Below are positions 1 through 8,607 of a stretch of 25,044 bases of DNA, piece by piece. The notes under the pieces are model-generated. The model saw only the letters and a program-made list of their open reading frames with translations. It was not told the origin of the DNA and did not search any database. This DNA is from a virus. The stretch covers positions 1 to 25,044 of IMG/VR virus record IMGVR_UViG_3300033571_020613. One strand, written 5' to 3'. Made by a program: the position numbers and the translations under genes. Each line of letters begins with the position of its first letter. Position 1 is the stretch's first letter.

Positions 1-830
1 CCTCTTCGGGTGTAGAGACATCCTACTAGTAGTTCTTCTGGTTCGAGTAGGTCCCAAAGTCTTTTGTAAATACACTCACAAATTTCTTCGTGAAAGTGAT
101 TTTCTTTTCTCATAGAGACAATATACTGCAGTAGAGATTCTTCCGTAACCCCCTTTTTACCTTTTTTATGGATGTACACATCACCCCAGTCAGGCTGATT
201 AGTAACCCGGCAGTTTGAACGAAGAGAGTGTGAGCGCCATCTCTCTGCATATTGTCCTGAAGTAGGAACAACTTTTAAGATATCAGCCGACTCATTATAT
301 CGATCAAAAGAAATATTTTCTATATCACAATAAAACTCTAATGCAATAAATTCATCGGCAAAAGGCCTTTCCGTAACCTTGGGATCAATAAACAAACACG
401 CTTTAACTGGACTATTGCTTCCTGTTGCTTTTTGTAAGTCGTTCTCAATCATTTGTTCTATCTTATAAATTTCATCATGCGTGTCAATCAAACGAGCCAT
501 ATTATAAGAGTTAAGATAGAGCTTGACCGACTTAGATTCAACAATATTTGGTGTGTGACAGTCGTATACAAATTTAAGCCACCCGGATATAGGATAGCCG
601 TTTTTAAGTAGCGTAGAGAATTCATAAGAATTCCAGCTATCTCTTCCTACAAAAGGTAAATTATTATCATCTAGACCATAAGCAGTTCGATTAAGCTGCC
701 TGGGTACTGCTACAAGCAGTGAAGGATCTACCTTATCCGGTGTTACGTACGGTTTAACTACAGTGCCATCACCTGCCCTTCCAAGGTGTACTGATACTAG
801 TTCATTTAGCTCTTTTTGATTAGCATCCAT
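1..830 (-). CDS. queF: QueF, NADPH-dependent preQ0 reductase, long (type II) form, C-terminus cut by window edge
   Basis: Reduces 7-cyano-7-deazaguanine (preQ0) to the aminomethyl base preQ1. Translation from the ATG at 830 gives about 276 residues before the window ends. It follows the E. coli-type two-domain QueF: N-terminal ESKSVKLYLNS motif at residues 98-108, then SNCRVTNQPDWGDV at 205-218 with the catalytic Cys207 and Asp214, then HFHEEICECIYKRL and a terminal YTRRG. Both halves are intact as far as visible, so it is probably active. The start overlaps the 3' end of the kinase-like gene (stop at 820-822). A tandem ATG at 833 is in the same frame, but 830 sits better behind the purine-rich GGAAAGAGAG. 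In this operon QueF would provide the amine that a formyltransferase such as DpdN could modify. Family assignment is firm. Whether it acts on the free base or on base already in DNA is not known. Confidence 0.93.
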   Translation of the reverse strand, partial: MDANQKELNELVSVHLGRAGDGTVVKPYVTPDKVDPSLLVAVPRQLNRTAYGLDDNNLPFVGRDSWNSYEFSTLLKNGYPISGWLKFVYDCHTPNIVESKSVKLYLNSYNMARLIDTHDEIYKIEQMIENDLQKATGSNSPVKACLFIDPKVTERPFADEFIALEFYCDIENISFDRYNESADILKVVPTSGQYAERWRSHSLRSNCRVTNQPDWGDVYIHKKGKKGVTEESLLQYIVSMRKENHFHEEICECIYKRLWDLLEPEELLVGCLYTRR

Positions 831-1395
831 CATCCATCTCTCTTTCCCACACCATTTCTTTTACATTTTCTAACGCTTTATAAGCTTTGACCACTGTTTC
901 AACTCGCTCTCTTACCGAACCTCTTAACAATGTACAGTTAATTTTTTCTAGATGTTCATTAAAAATTTTAACTATACTATTTCGAAATTCTACGTCTGTA
1001 CTTCGTTCTCCGTCGTCTGCTATTTCAAACTCCGGAGGGATATAAAACAACAAGTCATATTTTGGCATTACTTTATTAAACACTTTGTAAGCAAATGTAA
1101 GTGTATCGGTTGAAACTTTCTTCTTGTCTACTAAATACTTTGTATACACTACTCCGTCAAGCGCAGTACGATCAGTAATCATGTTATCGTACATAAAAAC
1201 GTTTACTATGTGTTCTTGCATAATAAGTTGCTGGGTAACATTGTCACCATTCTCATTAATGCGCAAACCATAGTCCCGTACACGCCTTGTTACTTCGTTG
1301 CAGATTGTATATTCTTTAAACCATTTTTCTGAACGTAATGCGTTAAGTAGAGTTGTCTTACCGACAGATTGAGCTCCACAGATACCAATTCTCAT
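820..1395 (-). CDS. P-loop NTPase, AAA_28/NadR-type kinase-like protein
   Basis: A 191-residue P-loop protein of unknown substrate. The Walker A motif GAQSVGKT is at residues 7-14, right after the first beta strand (MRIGIC). DRTALD at 75-80 resembles the lid or substrate-binding Asp-Arg of nucleoside and nucleotide kinases. A Walker-B-like strand (YDLLFYIPP) follows. This arrangement recalls the ATPase domain of NadR and phage deoxynucleotide-kinase-like proteins. I chose the ATG at 1395, not an in-frame ATG at 1425, because it overlaps the upstream stop as ATGA and has GAAAGG 9 bases upstream. It sits between the formyltransferase and queF. Base exchange by a transglycosylase does not need a nucleotide kinase, so its role in the modification pathway is unclear. 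It may act in general nucleotide metabolism. Confidence 0.75.
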   Translation of the reverse strand: MRIGICGAQSVGKTTLLNALRSEKWFKEYTICNEVTRRVRDYGLRINENGDNVTQQLIMQEHIVNVFMYDNMITDRTALDGVVYTKYLVDKKKVSTDTLTFAYKVFNKVMPKYDLLFYIPPEFEIADDGERSTDVEFRNSIVKIFNEHLEKINCTLLRGSVRERVETVVKAYKALENVKEMVWEREMDDGC

Positions 1396-1928
1396 TTTAT
1401 TATACCTTTCACAACATGCAACCATGATTCTAATGACGTACTTTTTAAAAGGCCATACATTTCATCTAATGTTGTAGCTGTATTGGGAGATGAATAGGCA
1501 AATAATATTTCTCCTTCATCAACACCCGGCGTTACCTTATGTACTACTGACCCAACAAAATGGTACTTACCTTTCCAGGCTCGTATTTGAGGGTCCTTGC
1601 CTTTTAACTCCGGGTAAGTATTAATGAGACCGGGATGACCATTGTACATAGTAAACTTATTACAAACATCCTCAGGTATAATTCTTAAGTAACCATGAAG
1701 AGTGCAAACTATTTCTTCTGGCTGCCACATAGTTTGAAGGCGTAAGTAATCCATTAAATAATTATGTTTAGCCGTTATTATTGGAACACCTAACTGCCGT
1801 ATTTTAGGGTTATAATTTATTTTATCTTCAAAATTGTTAGTAATAATTAAACTAGGCTTTACATTTAAACGCTCACATATATCAATTATTTCTGAGCCTG
1901 TTTGACTAAAAAATGTAATCCATTTCAT
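1392..1928 (-). CDS. dpdN: Folate-dependent formyltransferase, candidate dPreQ1 formyltransferase DpdN
   Basis: A 178-residue member of the GART/Fmt formyltransferase fold, which moves a formyl group from 10-formyl-tetrahydrofolate to an amine. The N-terminus (FFSQTGSEI, residues 6-14) resembles PurN. The catalytic triad of the family is visible: Asn96 and His98 in YNGHPGLINTYPELKGKDP, and Asp137 in TPGVDEGEIL, matching PurN Asn106, His108 and Asp144. PurN's role in purine synthesis is less likely here because the gene lies between a TGT-like DpdA and QueF. A preQ1 formyltransferase called DpdN has been predicted in phages carrying 2'-deoxy-7-(formylamino)methyl-7-deazaguanine. Its ATG overlaps the DpdA stop as TAATG, implying translational coupling. 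The fold is secure. The DpdN identity is inferred from gene context. Confidence 0.75.
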   Translation of the reverse strand: MKWITFFSQTGSEIIDICERLNVKPSLIITNNFEDKINYNPKIRQLGVPIITAKHNYLMDYLRLQTMWQPEEIVCTLHGYLRIIPEDVCNKFTMYNGHPGLINTYPELKGKDPQIRAWKGKYHFVGSVVHKVTPGVDEGEILFAYSSPNTATTLDEMYGLLKSTSLESWLHVVKGIIK

Positions 1929-2755
1929 TATTTGGAACCATTACAAAAAGATTTAAAATATTTAACGTTATGCTCAATTCGTTCCCGTTGAATTTGAACT
2001 GGTATGATTTTTAAAAGATCTACTAACTTAATGGACTGCTTAGTAACCAAGCCCCCAGGCTCATAATTAATATTAAGAAGACCATGAACGATAGGATTGG
2101 AAGTGTCAATAGTATCAATCCAATCGAATCCTTCACGGTAGAAAAGAAATTCAATAGGCAAGGAACAACCCAGTAAATGATGCGGTTTATCTTTGTTAAT
2201 AATTCCATCTTCTTGTAACCTCGTCAAAGTTTGTATACGTCCTAATGTATATCCCATCCACTTGTTAGGATGAGGACATATTTTTAAATAATAAGAGTAA
2301 TCAAAAGAAATAGCTAACTTGTCAACATTAATAACAGTATCAAGATATTGATAGCAGTTTACTAAATCTTCATATGACTTACCCTGAACAACTCCTATAC
2401 ACTTTGTATTAGGAGTAAGAGGGTTGCTACCCTGGTGTAGCGGCTCCCAATAATTCTCTTTCCAGTCTAAAGCATTATCCATAGTTCCTATAGCGTTTTC
2501 TAGAACATCAGGGATAATATATTCGGTAGGCTTAAGACGAGAGATCCAAGAAAAATATTTTTTACTGTCAAATGCTTCACCTAATTCAAAAATAGAGTTA
2601 TCTAAAATTACATGTCGACCGTCTTTTACTGCGTCTTCATAAAATTGATAATACTCCGGTATATCTTCAAATAAGTGAACAAGGGCATAATCGTAGTCAT
2701 TAAACTTACGGGAATCATGCAACAAGGACAGAGGAACCTCATGTGAAATTTTCAT
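1928..2755 (-). CDS. dpdA: TGT-like 7-deazaguanine transglycosylase (DpdA family)
   Basis: Predicted to exchange guanine in DNA for a 7-deazaguanine base, by analogy with tRNA-guanine transglycosylase (TGT). The 275 residues can be laid on TGT by eye: VILDNSIFE (49-57) on the active-site VLDSGGFQ strand, giving Asp52; IIPDV with Asp83; GVVQGKS (121-127) on GIVQGG; HLLGCSLPIEF (193-203) on LMGVG; and GFDWIDTIDTSNP (209-221) on the GIDxFDCVMPTR segment, which makes Asp214 the likely nucleophile. The TGT C-terminal zinc site (CxCxxC plus His) is absent, and the protein is shorter than the roughly 375 residues of bacterial TGT. Both fit a phage DpdA better than a tRNA enzyme. The start overlaps the upstream stop as ATGA. 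Clustering with FolE, QueE and QueF supports the role. The DpdA subfamily cannot be assigned from sequence reading alone. Confidence 0.82.
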   Translation of the reverse strand: MKISHEVPLSLLHDSRKFNDYDYALVHLFEDIPEYYQFYEDAVKDGRHVILDNSIFELGEAFDSKKYFSWISRLKPTEYIIPDVLENAIGTMDNALDWKENYWEPLHQGSNPLTPNTKCIGVVQGKSYEDLVNCYQYLDTVINVDKLAISFDYSYYLKICPHPNKWMGYTLGRIQTLTRLQEDGIINKDKPHHLLGCSLPIEFLFYREGFDWIDTIDTSNPIVHGLLNINYEPGGLVTKQSIKLVDLLKIIPVQIQRERIEHNVKYFKSFCNGSK

Positions 2756-3192
2756 TGTATTTTCTCAATAAAATTATTTTTATCAACCGAAACCCAGAGA
2801 ACTTTATCGCCTTTTTTGGTAATTTTTGCCCGGTGTTGATTTTTTTCAACATAATCAAGCATAGCCTTTACATTATAACGATAGATGGACTTTGTCTGTT
2901 CATCTACCCCATAAATTTCTTCAGCACCGGTAGTGTAGATCCAACCAGGTTTGTTTTTCTTTTTAACATGTAGCTCAACGGCAAGAAAGCCTTTAAAATA
3001 ATTAGTCTTTACATCTATTTTTACATTATTAATAATACAATCTATTTTTTCTTTTACCTGACTATTATAGTCGTTCTTATCTACAAAATCCAGGTTATTT
3101 GTTTTACAATATTCTTCAACGATAGCCTCACCTCGATCTCCTTTAGCACCATTGATACCATACCTTCCTTCTGAATTAGTATACCAAGTCAT
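2752..3192 (-). CDS. PD-(D/E)XK nuclease-like protein
   Basis: A 146-residue protein that I do not recognise as a named family but that shows a PD-(D/E)XK-like core. GDRGEAIVEEYC (residues 18-29) offers Glu22 or Glu26 in the first helix, KIDCII gives Asp51, and VKIDVKTNY gives the Asp60-Val-Lys62 signature on the next strand. Such small proteins include restriction-type and Holliday-junction nucleases. Start and stop overlap both neighbours by ATGA (oxygenase upstream, DpdA downstream), so it is made together with the modification enzymes. A nuclease that spares hypermodified phage DNA and attacks host DNA would fit the context, but this is inference. Non-nuclease members of the fold exist. 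Confidence 0.55.
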   Translation of the reverse strand: MTWYTNSEGRYGINGAKGDRGEAIVEEYCKTNNLDFVDKNDYNSQVKEKIDCIINNVKIDVKTNYFKGFLAVELHVKKKNKPGWIYTTGAEEIYGVDEQTKSIYRYNVKAMLDYVEKNQHRAKITKKGDKVLWVSVDKNNFIEKIQ

Positions 3193-3803
3193 ATAAAATT
3201 AATAGTTGCTACTACTCTAATATTGTTACTACTAGTAGAGCTAGAATGAAGTCTGAACCCGCTAAAAATAACCGCTCTATTTTTCTTAGGCTTAATTCTT
3301 TCTACAATATTTACTTCTCTCATATTACCTAGATCCATATCTTTCTGTACCTTGTCATTATACATTTCATCATACAGTACTGTATCTCCTTCAGTTTCGT
3401 TTATATAATAACAAAGTGTGTAGTGTGGTTCAAAAAAGTCAAAGTGAGGTTGATTAATTTCTTCACTACCTGAATTATTAGGTAAATTAAATCCCAATCT
3501 TATTCGTAATAATTCTTCTATTGGAGTTATTTTTTCTTCAATAGCATCTAAAACAGAATCAAATACGTAATGGTAGGATGATTTACTATGAGTAATATCT
3601 CTTTTATTAAAGATTGAATGTCCAAAACCTAAAGCAGGTTTATGTGCATGATCTTTTATTTTAAAAATGCATGGTTCGTTGTAATCCGACGTTATATTTT
3701 TTACGTAGTACCATGGAAAATATGGGTTATTAAGAAGTGTATTTTCTAAACGGCTAGCTGCTTTAGAGGTAATAAAGTTATCAAATATTTGTATATCGTT
3801 CAT
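3189..3803 (-). CDS. 2-oxoglutarate/Fe(II)-dependent oxygenase
   Basis: A 204-residue protein with the double-stranded beta-helix iron site. The metal triad is visible as His120-x-Asp122 in QPHFDFFEPHYTLCYYIN and His186 in FSGFRLHSSS. Arg196 in NNIRVVATINF is placed to bind the 2-oxoglutarate carboxylate. GDTVLYDE (139-146) is the typical strand after the HxD motif. Members oxidise or hydroxylate proteins, nucleic acids or small molecules; the substrate here is not known. Such genes are common in marine T4-like phages, so the family alone says little. Its place between FolE and the nuclease and DpdA genes, with ATGA overlaps on both sides, makes oxidation of a modified base a reasonable hypothesis. 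Fold assignment is good; function is open. Confidence 0.82.
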   Translation of the reverse strand: MNDIQIFDNFITSKAASRLENTLLNNPYFPWYYVKNITSDYNEPCIFKIKDHAHKPALGFGHSIFNKRDITHSKSSYHYVFDSVLDAIEEKITPIEELLRIRLGFNLPNNSGSEEINQPHFDFFEPHYTLCYYINETEGDTVLYDEMYNDKVQKDMDLGNMREVNIVERIKPKKNRAVIFSGFRLHSSSTSSNNIRVVATINFI

Positions 3804-4477
3804 CTTTTAATTAAATTCATAAATTCAGCTCTAGTTTCTGGCTCACTTCTAAAGCATCCCCCTAACTTAGCTGTTACCGTATAAGAAGAATGATCTTCTA
3901 CTCCTCTCGATTTTACACAGTAATGGGTACCTTCAATTACTACTGCTACATCTTCCGTATCAAGAATAAAAGAAAGGGCATGATAGACCTGCTCGGCAAT
4001 CCGCTCTTGTACTTGCGGTCGACGGGCAAAATATTCAACAATTCGATTAAGTTTAGAAAGACCTAGAACCTTACCTTTAGGGATGTATGCAATATGTGCT
4101 TTTCCATCAATAGTTACAAAGTGATGTTCACAGTTAGACATCATTGTAATATCTTTCTCAATAACCATTTCGTCATACTTCATTTTATTATCTATTACGG
4201 TACATTTAGGAAAATTATCGGGTTTTAAACCCCAGAAAATTTCATTAACGAACATCTTAGCCACCCGCTTAGGTGTTTCTTCTAACGAATCATCTGAGCG
4301 ATCTAAACCTAGAATATCCATAATAGCACTAAAATGTTTTTCTATTTTTTTAATTTTAGATTCATCTTTAACTAATACTTTATCAATAACCGTTGGAGTA
4401 TGTACCCCTTTAGATTTTAAATATTCTTCAATTTTATACCCCAGCTCGGGATCACATTTAGCTTTAGTGAGTGCCAT
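3800..4477 (-). CDS. folE: FolE, GTP cyclohydrolase I
   Basis: Converts GTP to 7,8-dihydroneopterin triphosphate, the first step toward 7-deazaguanines and also toward folate. The 225 residues contain the zinc and catalytic set in the usual order: Cys116, His118 and His119 in NCEHHFVTIDG, then His185 and Cys187 in THYCVKSRG (E. coli Cys110, His112, His113, His179, Cys181). The substrate-binding stretches HIAYIP, GLSKLNRIVEYFARR and QVQERI are intact. About 35 extra N-terminal residues precede the core, as in other phage FolE. The ATG lies just after the upstream stop, and GGAG of that gene's last codons serves as ribosome binding site, 5 bases from the start. With QueE, QueF and DpdA in the same operon, its main role is probably the DNA modification pathway. 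Confidence 0.96.
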   Translation of the reverse strand: MALTKAKCDPELGYKIEEYLKSKGVHTPTVIDKVLVKDESKIKKIEKHFSAIMDILGLDRSDDSLEETPKRVAKMFVNEIFWGLKPDNFPKCTVIDNKMKYDEMVIEKDITMMSNCEHHFVTIDGKAHIAYIPKGKVLGLSKLNRIVEYFARRPQVQERIAEQVYHALSFILDTEDVAVVIEGTHYCVKSRGVEDHSSYTVTAKLGGCFRSEPETRAEFMNLIKR

Positions 4478-4479
4478 GT

Positions 4480-5196
4480 TTACTCCATTAAGTTAGATTT
4501 AATTTCTTTTAAAATAATATTTTTGTAATGAGATTTTATAAAGATATTATAAAATGCATTCATCTTTTTTAACACGCTATATTTACCAACTACATTATAT
4601 TTTTTACTTCCAACTGTGCCTTGATAATAGTGTATAATTCGTTCGTTGCAGTAAAATTTTTTAAATTTTATTTTTTCATCGGTATGAAACTTAACGTATG
4701 CTAGAGTATCGCCTCGTTCAATCTTAACTCTTTTTTTCTGTTCATTAAAAATAATTCCAATGTCCAAGGGTCTAAACCAATTACCAATATTATAGTGCCC
4801 TTCCATTATAGATGCATTATTTGTAAAACTATTTTTTGCATAAAAAGCGTTTCTAAATTCCATATTAATTGGCTTTTCAGCAAAAAACATATAGCGAGCT
4901 AATGTAAAAGAAATAACACCTCTAGAAGAATCTCTTAAAATAATGTTGTTAGAAAAAAATTCTTGATCAAGAGCAGAAGAAGATATGCGGTCCCCCTCCC
5001 ATATTAAGTCATAATCAATTGGCGACTTCAACCTGTAAACATTTTTTAACTGCTGCATTGCAACCGGGCAACGTAATATATCTGTTGTCATGTGACCCGG
5101 TTTCCAAGTTTTAGTTAAAGCCTGTAAATCAAAAACTGCAAAATCAGGAGGAAGAGATTCAAATTGAAAAATTGGATGGGACCAATATACAATCAT
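4480..5196 (-). CDS. Conserved-looking protein of unknown function in the modification operon
   Basis: A 238-residue soluble protein that I cannot assign. It has no signal peptide, clear membrane segment or cysteine cluster. It is rich in aromatic residues: IVYWSHPIFQF at the N-terminus, then EGHYNIGNWFRPLDIGIIFNE around residues 132-152, followed by a short RGDTLAYVKFHTD stretch that looks like beta strands of a cupin-like or jelly-roll fold, and a basic C-terminus (about residues 175-235). I prefer the ATG at 5196 over a GTG at 5205, because it overlaps the queE stop as ATGA and GTGGGGAAC precedes it. It lies between queE and folE in the same transcript. A role in the same pathway is possible, but nothing in the sequence shows a catalytic site. 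Confidence 0.7.
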   Translation of the reverse strand: MIVYWSHPIFQFESLPPDFAVFDLQALTKTWKPGHMTTDILRCPVAMQQLKNVYRLKSPIDYDLIWEGDRISSSALDQEFFSNNIILRDSSRGVISFTLARYMFFAEKPINMEFRNAFYAKNSFTNNASIMEGHYNIGNWFRPLDIGIIFNEQKKRVKIERGDTLAYVKFHTDEKIKFKKFYCNERIIHYYQGTVGSKKYNVVGKYSVLKKMNAFYNIFIKSHYKNIILKEIKSNLME

Positions 5197-5513
5197 GTTC
5201 CCCACTCATTTTTAAATAACGGGACCTGTAAACGATCAGAGTAACGTAGACCTTTTTCCATTGCTAGCAAGGCTACAGTTTTGTTATTTAAATTATAAAC
5301 TGACTCAACCCCTCCTACTGGCATTAAGTAAACCGGGCCTTTAAAGCCAGCTTTTCTATATTCGTTTATAGCCCTCATAGCATCTTCTACATCCTGCTTT
5401 GTTGCTACAACAAATTTAAGGTAAGTGTACCCAATATCTTCGTACTCACAAACTACTTCTGGACAAATAGCTTCTTCCCATTTTTCCCCACTACAGGGTA
5501 ATTTAGCTGACAC
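5193..5513 (-). CDS. queE: C-terminal half of QueE, separated from the N-terminal half by an in-frame stop
   Basis: This reading frame is the direct continuation of the QueE fragment at 5595-6056. Both share one frame, and translation across the TAA continues as KSFRHFLLDWTLNPKRGRRG, then FSVSAKLPCSGEKWEEAI, then YLKFVVATKQDVEDA and YLMPVGG, ending NEWGT. These are the usual second-half elements of QueE-like radical SAM enzymes in phages. The frame is open from 5594 to the TGA at 5193. The only early start inside it is a GTG at 5513, which I read as an internal valine because no ribosome binding site precedes it. Without readthrough this half is probably not made, or is made only by weak reinitiation. 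Its stop overlaps the next gene's ATG. Confidence 0.85.
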   Translation of the reverse strand: MSAKLPCSGEKWEEAICPEVVCEYEDIGYTYLKFVVATKQDVEDAMRAINEYRKAGFKGPVYLMPVGGVESVYNLNNKTVALLAMEKGLRYSDRLQVPLFKNEWGT

Positions 5514-5594
5514 TGAAAAGGTAAGCTTATCATATCCTCGGCGACCTCGTTTTGGATTAAGAGTCCAATCAAGAAGAAAGTGTCTAAAGGATTT

Positions 5595-5597
5595 TTA
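5595..5597 (-). other. In-frame TAA that splits queE
   Basis: Reading queE from 6056, the codons run ACC CAA CCC ATT TAA AAA TCC TTT AGA, and the same frame stays open to 5193. A single ochre codon, with no insertion or deletion, separates the two halves. One base change would restore a sense codon such as CAA, GAA or AAA. TAA is also the normal stop of many genes in this window (gp15, gp14, UvsY, DpdA), so a general recoding of TAA is not supported. Possible causes are a real nonsense mutation, local readthrough, or a sequence or assembly error. Confidence 0.9.
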
Positions 5598-6056
5598 AAT
5601 GGGTTGGGTACCGTTAGTTTCAAAAGTAAGCTCTTTTAAGTCACTCATTAATTCATTCTCTAGTAAATCTGGGTAAGCTCGCTGCCATCCAAGAAGCGGC
5701 TCACCCCCTGTAATTACTAGGTGCTCACTTTCCCATTTTTTGTTTGGAAGTAAATCCACAATTGACTTAACAAGACCATCAACTTCCACAACAGGGCTAA
5801 GATGCTTAAAACGAACATCCCAGGAAGCATAAGAATCACAGCCGGTAGATACCAGAGGAAGTTCTTTGTAGTTTTGAAATTTAGAAATGTTTTCTGCAAT
5901 TTGATCCCTTTCTTTACTAACTTCACCAGGAGGCATACCGAAACCCCCACAGGTAAAGTTACATCCAAAGGTTCTTAAGAAGACAGAAGGTACGCCCATA
6001 TAGCGGCCTTCACCTTGAATAGAATAAAAAAGCTCAGCAACTTTTATCTTTGACAT
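5595..6056 (-). CDS. queE: N-terminal part of QueE (7-carboxy-7-deazaguanine synthase), radical SAM
   Basis: QueE converts 6-carboxytetrahydropterin to 7-carboxy-7-deazaguanine (CDG) with a [4Fe-4S] cluster and S-adenosylmethionine. The first 153 residues show FYSIQGEGRYMGVPSVFLRT (10-29), the cluster start CNFTC (Cys32, Cys36), VITGGEPLLG for SAM binding near 114-123, and FETNGTQPI at the end. The third cluster cysteine appears to be Cys73 in TGCDSYASWD. The spacing CX3CX36C suggests an insert of about 34 residues in the usual CX3CX2C loop. The frame stops at a TAA (5595-5597) and resumes directly after it. The whole gene would be 287 residues (5193-6056). AGGAG lies 5 bases before the ATG. 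It is the first gene of the modification operon. Confidence 0.9.
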   Translation of the reverse strand: MSKIKVAELFYSIQGEGRYMGVPSVFLRTFGCNFTCGGFGMPPGEVSKERDQIAENISKFQNYKELPLVSTGCDSYASWDVRFKHLSPVVEVDGLVKSIVDLLPNKKWESEHLVITGGEPLLGWQRAYPDLLENELMSDLKELTFETNGTQPI

Positions 6057-6081
6057 AACAACTCCTAGTTATTTTGATAGC

Positions 6082-6097
6082 AGGTGGAAGGGCACCT
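6082..6097 (-). promoter_or_regulatory. Leader hairpin ahead of queE, possible pseudoknot over the ribosome binding site
   Basis: On the transcript AGGUG pairs with CACCU around the loop CCCUUC. An A-rich tail (GCUAUCAAAAUAACUAGGAG) then leads into the queE ribosome binding site. Loop CUUC can pair with GGAG of that site, giving an H-type pseudoknot. This resembles the general plan of preQ1-I riboswitches, which control preQ1 genes, but the loop is shorter than in known members. The hairpin is seen; the regulatory role is inferred. Confidence 0.3.
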
Positions 6098-6116
6098 ACA
6101 CTCACACGCTCATAAT

Positions 6117-6145
6117 ATAATAATCTATTTATGTATCTAAATCAA
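6117..6145 (-). promoter_or_regulatory. Sigma70-like promoter for the modification operon
   Basis: TTGATT (6140-6145), a 17-base spacer and TATTAT (6117-6122) match the host sigma70 consensus at 4 of 6 and 5 of 6 bases with ideal spacing. The -35 box lies in the last codons of gp55. Transcription would start near 6110, giving a leader of about 55 bases before the queE ATG. This would allow expression by unmodified host polymerase early in infection, when a DNA modification operon is needed. Confidence 0.5.
6126..6133 (-). promoter_or_regulatory. Late-promoter-like motif CATAAATA before queE
   Basis: CATAAATA matches 7 of 8 bases of the T4 late promoter TATAAATA. It overlaps the gp55 stop codon and lies within the spacer of the sigma70-like promoter. 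It is the weakest-placed of the seven sites because it partly falls in a coding end, but it keeps the shared core ATAAATA. Confidence 0.4.
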
Positions 6146-6725
6146 CTTTTTCTGGTAAATCTTTCTTTTTCTTTTTGGTAGTTTTAATTGTTTTACGATC
6201 AGGGTCTATGGTGTCGGCTTGTTTATGAATTAATTCTATTAAGTGATTTGCAAACTCTTCGTTATCTTCTGATTGAGCTATAAGTTGGTCAATATCAACA
6301 TTTTCTAGTAATTTATATTTTGTGGCTGTTTGCTTTTTTTCTTTTTGTATGCGACGAATAAAAGCAAAGTAAATAATTTGAGTATAGTACGCGAATGGGT
6401 TTGAGGATCGTGAAGGATCAAATTTTTCTACAGCTGTTAGACAGTTTTCAATACCATCAGATATCATATCATCTTTGTATGTATAGTTAATAAAATTAGC
6501 TTTATACGAAAGATGGGTTGCAATTTTTAAAAAGCATTCACCAAGATAATTACTTACTCGCGGCTTGGGTAACCCTTGTCCAATAGATTTATCTACTAAT
6601 GTTTTATGTTCTACCAAAGCTTGATAGAATTTTTTATTATCTACGTAATGAGCGCCGGTTTTAGTAGATGGCTCTTCCGGTGTCTTAGTGGATAATTCTT
6701 CTTGTTGTTGTGTTGTATTGTTCAT
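6129..6725 (-). CDS. 55: gp55, late-transcription sigma factor
   Basis: Phage sigma factor that directs host RNA polymerase to late promoters, working with the sliding clamp in T4. The protein has 198 residues from the ATG at 6725 (T4 gp55 about 185). After a Thr/Gln/Glu-rich tail comes the region-2-like helix set: LGECFLKIATHLSYKANFINYTYKDDMISDGIENCLTAVEKFDP with the DDMISDGI core, then NPFAYYTQIIYFAFIRRIQKEKKQ, the part that resembles sigma region 2 promoter-melting helices. An upstream in-frame TTG at 6734 is less likely than the ATG. The start lies inside the preceding gene (overlap about 40 bases). The seven ATAAATA-core sites in this window are its likely targets. Confidence 0.93.
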   Translation of the reverse strand: MNNTTQQQEELSTKTPEEPSTKTGAHYVDNKKFYQALVEHKTLVDKSIGQGLPKPRVSNYLGECFLKIATHLSYKANFINYTYKDDMISDGIENCLTAVEKFDPSRSSNPFAYYTQIIYFAFIRRIQKEKKQTATKYKLLENVDIDQLIAQSEDNEEFANHLIELIHKQADTIDPDRKTIKTTKKKKKDLPEKVDLDT

Positions 6726-7125
6726 TTTCTTCAAATTCTAATTGTGAATCGTCCCCATCTTCAATGTTTTCCAAAAGCATACTTAGTTTTTCTTCTATAC
6801 TTTTTTCACTTACATCTTGTATAGGTTTTTTATCTCTATCTTCTACAAAACTAATGTAATGACTTACCGCGCTTTCTAATAAATCTGCTACTGTTATAAT
6901 CATATCAGAAGAAAGTAGCATTACGTTACAAACTCCTAATTTCGTCCAGGATTGCATTGTATATGTTTCCATTATAACCTGATTTGAGGAAATTCTTGTA
7001 ACACCAAGGCATACAGGGTCAATAATCTTTATGTATTTTTCAGCCCTATAATCTTCATATGCTAACTCTGTCTTAGCAATTATATCATCCCCGTTGGAGA
7101 GTTTAATATACTTGTAGTATTCCAC
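6685..7125 (-). CDS. Small conserved phage protein, possibly Sm-like
   Basis: A 146-residue protein that starts with YYKYIKLSNGDDIIAKTELAYEDYR, a beta-hairpin pattern like the Sm1 motif of Sm/Hfq-like RNA-binding folds. It continues with more strands (YIKIIDPVCLGVTRI, QVIMETYTMQSWTKLG) and ends in an acidic low-complexity tail. Proteins of this type often sit next to UvsW or gp55 in marine T4-like phages. The start is a GTG one base after the uvsW-side boundary (TAAGTG read across the junction), with AAAGG about 12 bases upstream; there is no later Met near the N-terminus. Function is unknown; the Sm-like reading is tentative. Confidence 0.7.
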   Translation of the reverse strand: MEYYKYIKLSNGDDIIAKTELAYEDYRAEKYIKIIDPVCLGVTRISSNQVIMETYTMQSWTKLGVCNVMLLSSDMIITVADLLESAVSHYISFVEDRDKKPIQDVSEKSIEEKLSMLLENIEDGDDSQLEFEENEQYNTTTRRIIH

Positions 7126-8607
7126 TTATAGATCTACCTTTATCATTTGATAGTCGAACTGCTCGTCATTATATATTTTTACACGGTCAATCATATGTGT
7201 TAGTGTATAGTTCTTTCTCGTTTTCCAGGTCATATCATCGCCTATATCATACAAATTGCAGGCTACTTTTTTATCCCCTCTCCTTAAACCTCTACCTATA
7301 GATTGAAGATTACGAATTCTTGATTTTGAAGGAGATGCAAATATAATATTATGTAAGTTTTTAATATTTATACCGGTAGAAAACGTACCGTAGCTAGCTA
7401 CAATTATAGCATTACTTTCTTGTTCTGTTATATGTCTAATGTCTTCCCTTTGTTGTGTGTCCGTACCGCCATATACAAAAAATACTTTACGAAAATCATC
7501 TTTATTTTTAATTAATTCATACAAGATTTTACCGTGTTTTTCAACAAATTGAAATAAAACTAGTGTGTTTCCCTCTTGTTTTAATGATAAATTTCGAATA
7601 AAACGATTTCGAGGTTCATACTGTACCAGGAAGTCCATTTCTTCCTGATACTTGTTTTCTTTGTTATTCTTTCGTATTTCATTGGGGTGGTTTAGAACAA
7701 TACAATATATTTTAAGATTAGCCAATTGCTCATTGTCCATTAATTGCCTGGTTGTGGTCACTTTATAAACCAAACCAAAAAGACCTTCTAAGACAAGTTT
7801 ATGAGTTTTTGTCCCGTCCAAAGTCCCGGTAGTACCAATTCTATAAGGGGTACCTATCATTTTATGCAAGATAGAAGTTAATGATTTTGCTTTAAAAAGG
7901 TGTGCCTCATCCCCATAAACTACTTTAAAATCACTGAAGAATTGTTTTGGTAAATTGTACACCGATTGCCACGTAGAAATAGTTACTGGCATTTCGTTTG
8001 ATTTGTCGAAACCAGAATAGATTCGAGAACAGTGATAAGAGGCTTTCCAACCGTTAAGGGTGGAGTAGTCTTGAAAGTCTGAATACATTTGTTCAACAAG
8101 GGAGGTAGTAGGAACAAGAATTAATTGTTTTCTATCAAACTGTTCATGCCACCTTATTAAGCAATAAATGATTAAGGATTTACCTGACCCTGTTGGAGAA
8201 AGCAACAAGCGACGACCGTCTTGTATACCTCTCAAAACTGCGTCTATCTGGTAATCTCGTATCTCTAACGGTTCTCCCTTTGATGCTAGGTTAAGATTGC
8301 GACAAAACTCCTCTACAATGGAATATGTCACACTATCTGCTGTCTCAATAAACTGACTGCTATCGACCGTGTAATTATTTACTTCTGCAAAATGAAGAAG
8401 ATAGTTCTGCAAACCTACATACATCTCTTTAGTGAGCATGGAAAAAAGTCTAACTTTTCCATCCCACATTTTATTTCGATAAAGGGGGTGAAATTTTGCT
8501 CCTGGTACCTCAAAAGAAAAATGATCTGAAAGCTCTTGTGCTATTGAAGGGTCGCACTGAACATGTAAATAAACTTCATTTTTCTTTTTGTAGGTTATAT
8601 CTGCCAT
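7126..8607 (-). CDS. uvsW: UvsW, recombination and branch-migration helicase
   Basis: Superfamily 2 helicase that in T4 unwinds R-loops, migrates branched DNA and shifts replication from origin- to recombination-dependent mode. The 493 residues are close to the T4 length of about 503. The N-terminal domain has FHPLYRNKMWDGKVRLF (39-55). Then follow Walker A SPTGSGKS (137-144), motif II DEAH (233-236) in VVYGDEAHLFKAKS, motif III TGT near 260, and the C-terminal lobe with motif VI QSIGRGLRRGDKK. All key residues are present. The ATG overlaps the uvsY stop as TAATG, matching the UvsY-UvsW pairing of T4-like genomes. Confidence 0.96.
   Translation of the reverse strand: MADITYKKKNEVYLHVQCDPSIAQELSDHFSFEVPGAKFHPLYRNKMWDGKVRLFSMLTKEMYVGLQNYLLHFAEVNNYTVDSSQFIETADSVTYSIVEEFCRNLNLASKGEPLEIRDYQIDAVLRGIQDGRRLLLSPTGSGKSLIIYCLIRWHEQFDRKQLILVPTTSLVEQMYSDFQDYSTLNGWKASYHCSRIYSGFDKSNEMPVTISTWQSVYNLPKQFFSDFKVVYGDEAHLFKAKSLTSILHKMIGTPYRIGTTGTLDGTKTHKLVLEGLFGLVYKVTTTRQLMDNEQLANLKIYCIVLNHPNEIRKNNKENKYQEEMDFLVQYEPRNRFIRNLSLKQEGNTLVLFQFVEKHGKILYELIKNKDDFRKVFFVYGGTDTQQREDIRHITEQESNAIIVASYGTFSTGINIKNLHNIIFASPSKSRIRNLQSIGRGLRRGDKKVACNLYDIGDDMTWKTRKNYTLTHMIDRVKIYNDEQFDYQMIKVDL

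Follow-up and report, generated by a model that had tools for sequence, protein, structure and literature searches.

A candidate DpdN-type formyltransferase in a conserved dpdA gene cassette on a viral contig with T4-like phage genes

A dpdA gene cluster on the window

The window, that is, the whole stretch of DNA analysed here, is an entire IMG/VR record of 25,044 bases. It carries T4-like phage genes for the major head protein, portal, sheath, terminase, UvsY, a helicase and a late sigma factor. At one end lies a cluster of minus-strand genes, which includes the formyltransferase gene under study (FT). In the order in which they are read, these are:

5193-6056, minus strand: queE, 7-carboxy-7-deazaguanine synthase, split between ORFs 5595-6056 and 5193-5513, each of which matches the QueE-like phrog_2076
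4480-5205, minus strand: a gene of unknown function between queE and folE, protein phrog_17480
3800-4477, minus strand: folE, GTP cyclohydrolase I, the first step to preQ0 (Pfam 1.8e-62)
3189-3803, minus strand: 2OG-Fe(II)-oxygenase-like protein (Pfam 1.6e-5, slightly under the cut-off)
2752-3192, minus strand: conserved small protein of unknown function whose gene overlaps dpdA (34 matching ORFs among the loci of the set)
1928-2755, minus strand: dpdA, putative DNA-guanine transglycosylase of the TGT superfamily, 275 aa, sharing 49% identity with the DpdA annotated in phage immuto
1392-1928, minus strand: FT, candidate DpdN-type formyltransferase, 178 aa; triad N96, H98 and D137; signature SQTGSE at residues 8-13; insertion in HPGLINTYPELKG
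820-1395, minus strand: AAA_28 P-loop kinase, nucleoside/nucleotide-kinase-like; likely ATG at 1395 and stop at 820, the mechanical ORF extending to 1425
3-833, minus strand: queF, bimodular preQ0 reductase (QueF_N 1.6e-29, QueF 1.2e-14), its C-terminus lost at the contig end

The genes dpdA, FT, kinase and queF form the coupled core of the operon. The dpdA stop and the FT start overlap by one base (TAATG), and the FT stop and the kinase start by four (ATGA). A sequence-only reading of this DNA had placed FT between dpdA and queF. FT does adjoin dpdA, but the gene order needs correction on the other side, because the gene that follows it encodes a conserved AAA_28 kinase, and queF comes only after that. 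Nor is the operon complete, as had been supposed: queF is cut by the contig end, queE has an in-frame stop, and neither QueD nor QueC was identified on this contig. The split of queE into two ORFs is due to a single in-frame TAA at 5595-5597. The frame runs on past it to the end of the gene, and relatives have intact copies; the TAA may be a true lesion, an assembly error or something else.

Among the other members of the cluster, the product of 2752-3192 is encoded directly upstream of dpdA in many relatives, and a Pfam search assigned it to no family. The oxygenase-like gene is probably not part of the core, since it is rare in relatives. Two copies of the phrog_17480 protein (2384-3232 and 4031-4822) were seen in one other locus, L016.

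The dpdA product had no Pfam match, and its sole PDB sequence match, the DNA-guanine transglycosylase 7ui4, was weak and not significant by itself. When its profile was aligned to E. coli Tgt with hhalign (E = 0.005), the VQG, HLLG and nucleophile-Asp motifs fell in register. With these TGT-superfamily motifs, including the nucleophile Asp, 1928-2755 is predicted to encode a DpdA. The protein is clearly similar to the enzyme of Firehammervirus; complete replacement of guanine is the hallmark of the DpdA3 subfamily. For queF, similarity separates phage QueF from QueF-L poorly, and phage Dp-1, with an enzyme annotated as QueF-L, carried dPreQ1 (PMC6884629), so a check of individual residues matters. 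The window protein has the bimodular layout of E. coli QueF and retains the catalytic Cys, the Asp and the ESKSxKLYL motif, which are invariant or nearly so across 47 members of the cassette.

An intact folate-type formyltransferase

The presence of an intact folate-type formyltransferase gene at 1392-1928 is confirmed. The minus-strand ORF runs uninterrupted from the ATG at 1928 to a TGA ending at 1392, and its product matched Pfam Formyl_trans_N with an E-value of 7.8e-8 (32.7 bits, cut-off 26.1). The Asn-His-Asp triad noticed in the sequence-only reading is indeed present: in an alignment with E. coli PurN, PurU, Fmt and ArnA, the catalytic positions are occupied by N96, H98 and D137, and all three are unchanged across 66 aligned dereplicated relatives of FT. 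FT is not a chance ORF, as two scans found its relatives encoded on 351 and 554 stretches of viral contig. With these relatives, an enzyme family that had been predicted but scarcely tested now spans hundreds of environmental phage contigs.

The AlphaFold2 model of FT, with a mean pLDDT of 96.5, shows a minimal 178-aa domain that lacks a nucleic-acid-binding appendage. All of its top 24 fold matches in the PDB are PurN/GAR transformylases, led by 4s1n (E = 6e-12, TM 0.83). FT shares with PurN the fold, the triad and the cofactor site, but it is shorter and differs at several positions. Ser8-Gln9 and Glu13 are invariant in the FT family, whereas E. coli PurN has Ser8-Gly9 and Asn13, the latter position presumably being a phosphate contact. 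A three-residue insertion after HPGLI is also peculiar to the FT family relative to E. coli PurN.

Placement among formyltransferases and rival substrates

In a maximum-likelihood tree, the DpdN-type proteins and one Microcoleus plasmid protein lay on one side of a branch with an SH-aLRT of 100, and PurN (cellular and cyanophage), PurU, Fmt and ArnA lay on the other. Because ArnA and the Microcoleus protein sit on long branches, the exact joins are uncertain. The phylogeny proposed in the sequence-only reading thus puts FT outside these four families, and a position within PurN, named there as evidence against DpdN, was not seen. ArnA was the sole sugar-type entry in the tree; other sugar formyltransferases were compared by profile scores alone and lay far below PurN in the FT profile search. 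FT scored 35.5 bits on the NCBIfam PurN equivalog against a cut-off of 150.1, and 16.4 bits on Fmt against 201.5, corresponding to the N-terminal domain only, without the C-terminal tRNA-binding domain. Taken together, the tree and these cut-offs rule out membership of PurN, PurU, Fmt or ArnA.

Within its clade, FT groups with a protein of Flavobacterium phage vB_FspM_immuto (QQO91746.1), which is 43% identical over the alignment and has the same triad and signatures. The immuto cassette follows the same dpdA-FT-kinase-queF order (DpdA 49%, kinase 34% and QueF 44% identical). Its cluster differs in that QueD, QueE, a phosphoribosyltransferase and a PRA-PH pyrophosphohydrolase are also encoded close by. 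The only annotation of the immuto FT is phosphoribosylglycinamide formyltransferase, which would make it, and by extension the window FT, an auxiliary purine-synthesis enzyme that formylates GAR, as in cyanophages. The closest fold and PDB profile matches of FT, which are PurN, speak for such a role, as does its PHROG match, the cyanophage PurN family at 2e-7. Nevertheless, we regard it as highly improbable: cyanophage PurNs cluster with cellular PurN in the tree while FT does not, the equivalog score is far short of its cut-off, Glu13 is invariant where E. coli PurN has Asn13, and among phages FT is always found in dpdA loci.

A second alternative is that FT formylates some other amine, for example that of an amino sugar or of a further-modified base, the dpdA neighbourhood being secondary. 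Here the Microcoleus sp. CAWBG506 plasmid formyltransferase (L162) is the main witness. It is 40-44% identical to the FT proteins, has the same signatures and falls inside the FT clade, yet no dpdA or queF lies in the 16.5 kb of sequence that carries it; its cluster (4758-8543) instead has radical SAM, thymidylate-kinase-like, DegT aminotransferase and phosphoribosyltransferase genes. The clade is therefore not limited to preQ1. The oxygenase-like gene in the window cluster points the same way. However, dpdA and queF are constant partners of FT among phage loci, the oxygenase is rare in relatives, and sugar formyltransferases score poorly against the FT profile, so another amine is an improbable substrate for the window protein. 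Cellular homologues of FT were limited to one match in the genome contigs searched, with none in the other sampled cyanobacterial genomes. The L162 cluster, on a plasmid-like contig, adjoins a XamI restriction endonuclease and an Eco57I-type methylase, and its phosphoribosyltransferase matches a phage profile (9.5e-25).

FT occurs within QueF, and QueF within DpdA

The pooled set of 234 untruncated dpdA loci, which is enriched for FT-seeded contigs, fell into three classes: FT and QueF together in 203 loci, QueF but not FT in 18, and neither in 13; no locus had FT in the absence of QueF. An enzyme that worked on preQ1, the product of QueF, would give such nesting of FT within QueF within DpdA. 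We claim no significance, because the dpdA tree offers only about three well-supported FT changes that are independent, a number too small for a test. The DpdA-seeded set alone, with 54 untruncated loci having FT, kinase and QueF, 12 having the kinase only and 2 having none of them, had suggested a strict equivalence of FT and QueF (54 with both, 14 with neither). This was dropped after a kinase-seeded scan gave 29 loci in which dpdA, the kinase and queF occur and FT is missing. A search, run without a positive control, found no FT elsewhere in 15 records of this dpdA-kinase-queF class. Seven FT-negative virus records, among them three Firehammervirus genomes, lacked QueF too.

An FT-seeded scan for divergent members found dpdA in 76 of 76 new loci. 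Eight of these lacked queF or the kinase, on contigs that stop less than 2 kb downstream of FT. Of 80 environmental contigs, most keep the order dpdA-FT-kinase-queF; one clade has dpdA-queF-FT-kinase instead, with the four genes still together.

Proposed function and timing of formylation

FT has three features expected of a DpdN: a formyltransferase domain with the triad, a place beside DpdA and a preQ1-forming QueF, and grouping with the formyltransferases of dpdA-queF phages. Cui et al. (NAR, 2023) reportedly put DpdN forward as a dPreQ1 formyltransferase, with fdPreQ1 found in phage DNA. Literature searches for DpdN found nothing relevant; PMC12783734 cites the DpdN work of Cui et al. 2023. 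The match of FT to DpdN is one of predicted role and of DpdA and QueF context.

The candidacy of FT as DpdN, put forward in the sequence-only reading, gains support from the triad, the placement outside PurN, PurU, Fmt and ArnA, the clade and identical four-gene cassette shared with immuto, and the nested occurrence. From the observed sequence, triad, predicted fold, clade, coupled operon and co-occurrence we infer the substrate, the product and its protective effect: FT is very probably a DpdN-type N-formyltransferase leading to formyl-preQ1 DNA, whether it acts before or after base exchange. In the proposed pathway, preQ0 would be made by the phage and host enzymes FolE, QueD, QueE and QueC, and QueF would reduce it to preQ1, which bears a primary aminomethyl group. 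DpdA would swap guanine in phage DNA for a 7-deazaguanine base. Using Asn96, His98 and Asp137, FT would transfer the formyl group of 10-formyl-tetrahydrofolate onto the aminomethyl nitrogen of preQ1, in the way that PurN formylates GAR. The product in DNA, 7-(formylamino)methyl-7-deazaguanine, may confer resistance to host restriction and other defences.

Regarding timing, FT might formylate free preQ1, with DpdA then inserting formyl-preQ1. The minimal domain without a nucleic-acid-binding appendage fits this order, and QueF of this type uses the free base, as established for bacterial QueF. By contrast, gains or losses of FT across the dpdA tree have no corresponding dpdA subtype, a pattern more simply explained if DpdA inserts preQ1 in every case and FT works on it later. 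The FT family is not basic (median net charge -2), which would also suit a free substrate, but DpdA itself is acidic (median -10), so net charge is a weak guide to DNA binding and was set aside as uninformative. On balance, formylation of free preQ1 is a serious possibility to which we give slightly less than even credence.

The DpdN assignment of FT offers a comparative prediction for dpdA phages: their DNA would contain formyl-preQ1 where both queF and FT are present, preQ1 where only queF is present, and preQ0 or ADG where both genes are missing. Loci in which dpdA, kinase and queF are adjacent without FT (L254, L262, L266, L272, L279 and similar) are predicted to go with unformylated preQ1 in the phage DNA.

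A kinase that accompanies dpdA

The FT family itself is already predicted in the literature; its constant kinase neighbour is the less ordinary part of the cassette. The nearest relatives of this AAA_28 kinase, at modest similarity, are deoxynucleoside kinases, the NadR ribosylnicotinamide kinase and thymidylate kinases. The family is found almost exclusively beside dpdA (window 820-1395; L084 9001-9543; L212-L288), and the kinase-seeded scan found dpdA in 51 of 51 loci with at least 3.5 kb of upstream sequence. In Campylobacter Firehammervirus (CP21), DpdA (43-46% identical) and the AAA_28 kinase (41%) are adjacent and in the same order as in the window, although, unlike the window, these full genomes have neither FT nor QueF. 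As the kinase occurs without FT, a role in the formylation step is unlikely. Nor is the kinase always needed, since it is missing from one FT-positive clade, which includes an 82-kb record. According to PMC8713573, which cites Crippen et al. 2019, deazaguanosine was reported in place of guanosine in Firehammervirus DNA.

These observations raise the thought that the kinase is a partner of this type of DpdA and not of FT, base exchange including a nucleotide-level step in which the substrate of the kinase is a deoxynucleoside or deoxynucleotide of deazaguanine, or a product of the released guanine. Such a step, if true, would help explain complete guanine replacement; the conserved kinase beside dpdA may bear on this total replacement in some phages. 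We nevertheless think it unlikely. In infected cells, Crippen et al. in 2019 reportedly detected no dADG phosphates, a result that disfavours a nucleotide-level role.

Two further enzymes were seen in these clusters. A xanthine/guanine-type phosphoribosyltransferase recurs in 7-deazaguanine clusters (L002 5881-6276 and 57 other ORFs) and could remove or recycle the guanine released by DpdA. In the immuto-like group, a gene for a PRA-PH-type nucleotide pyrophosphohydrolase (L002 7320-7844, with counterparts in related loci) lies immediately upstream of dpdA.
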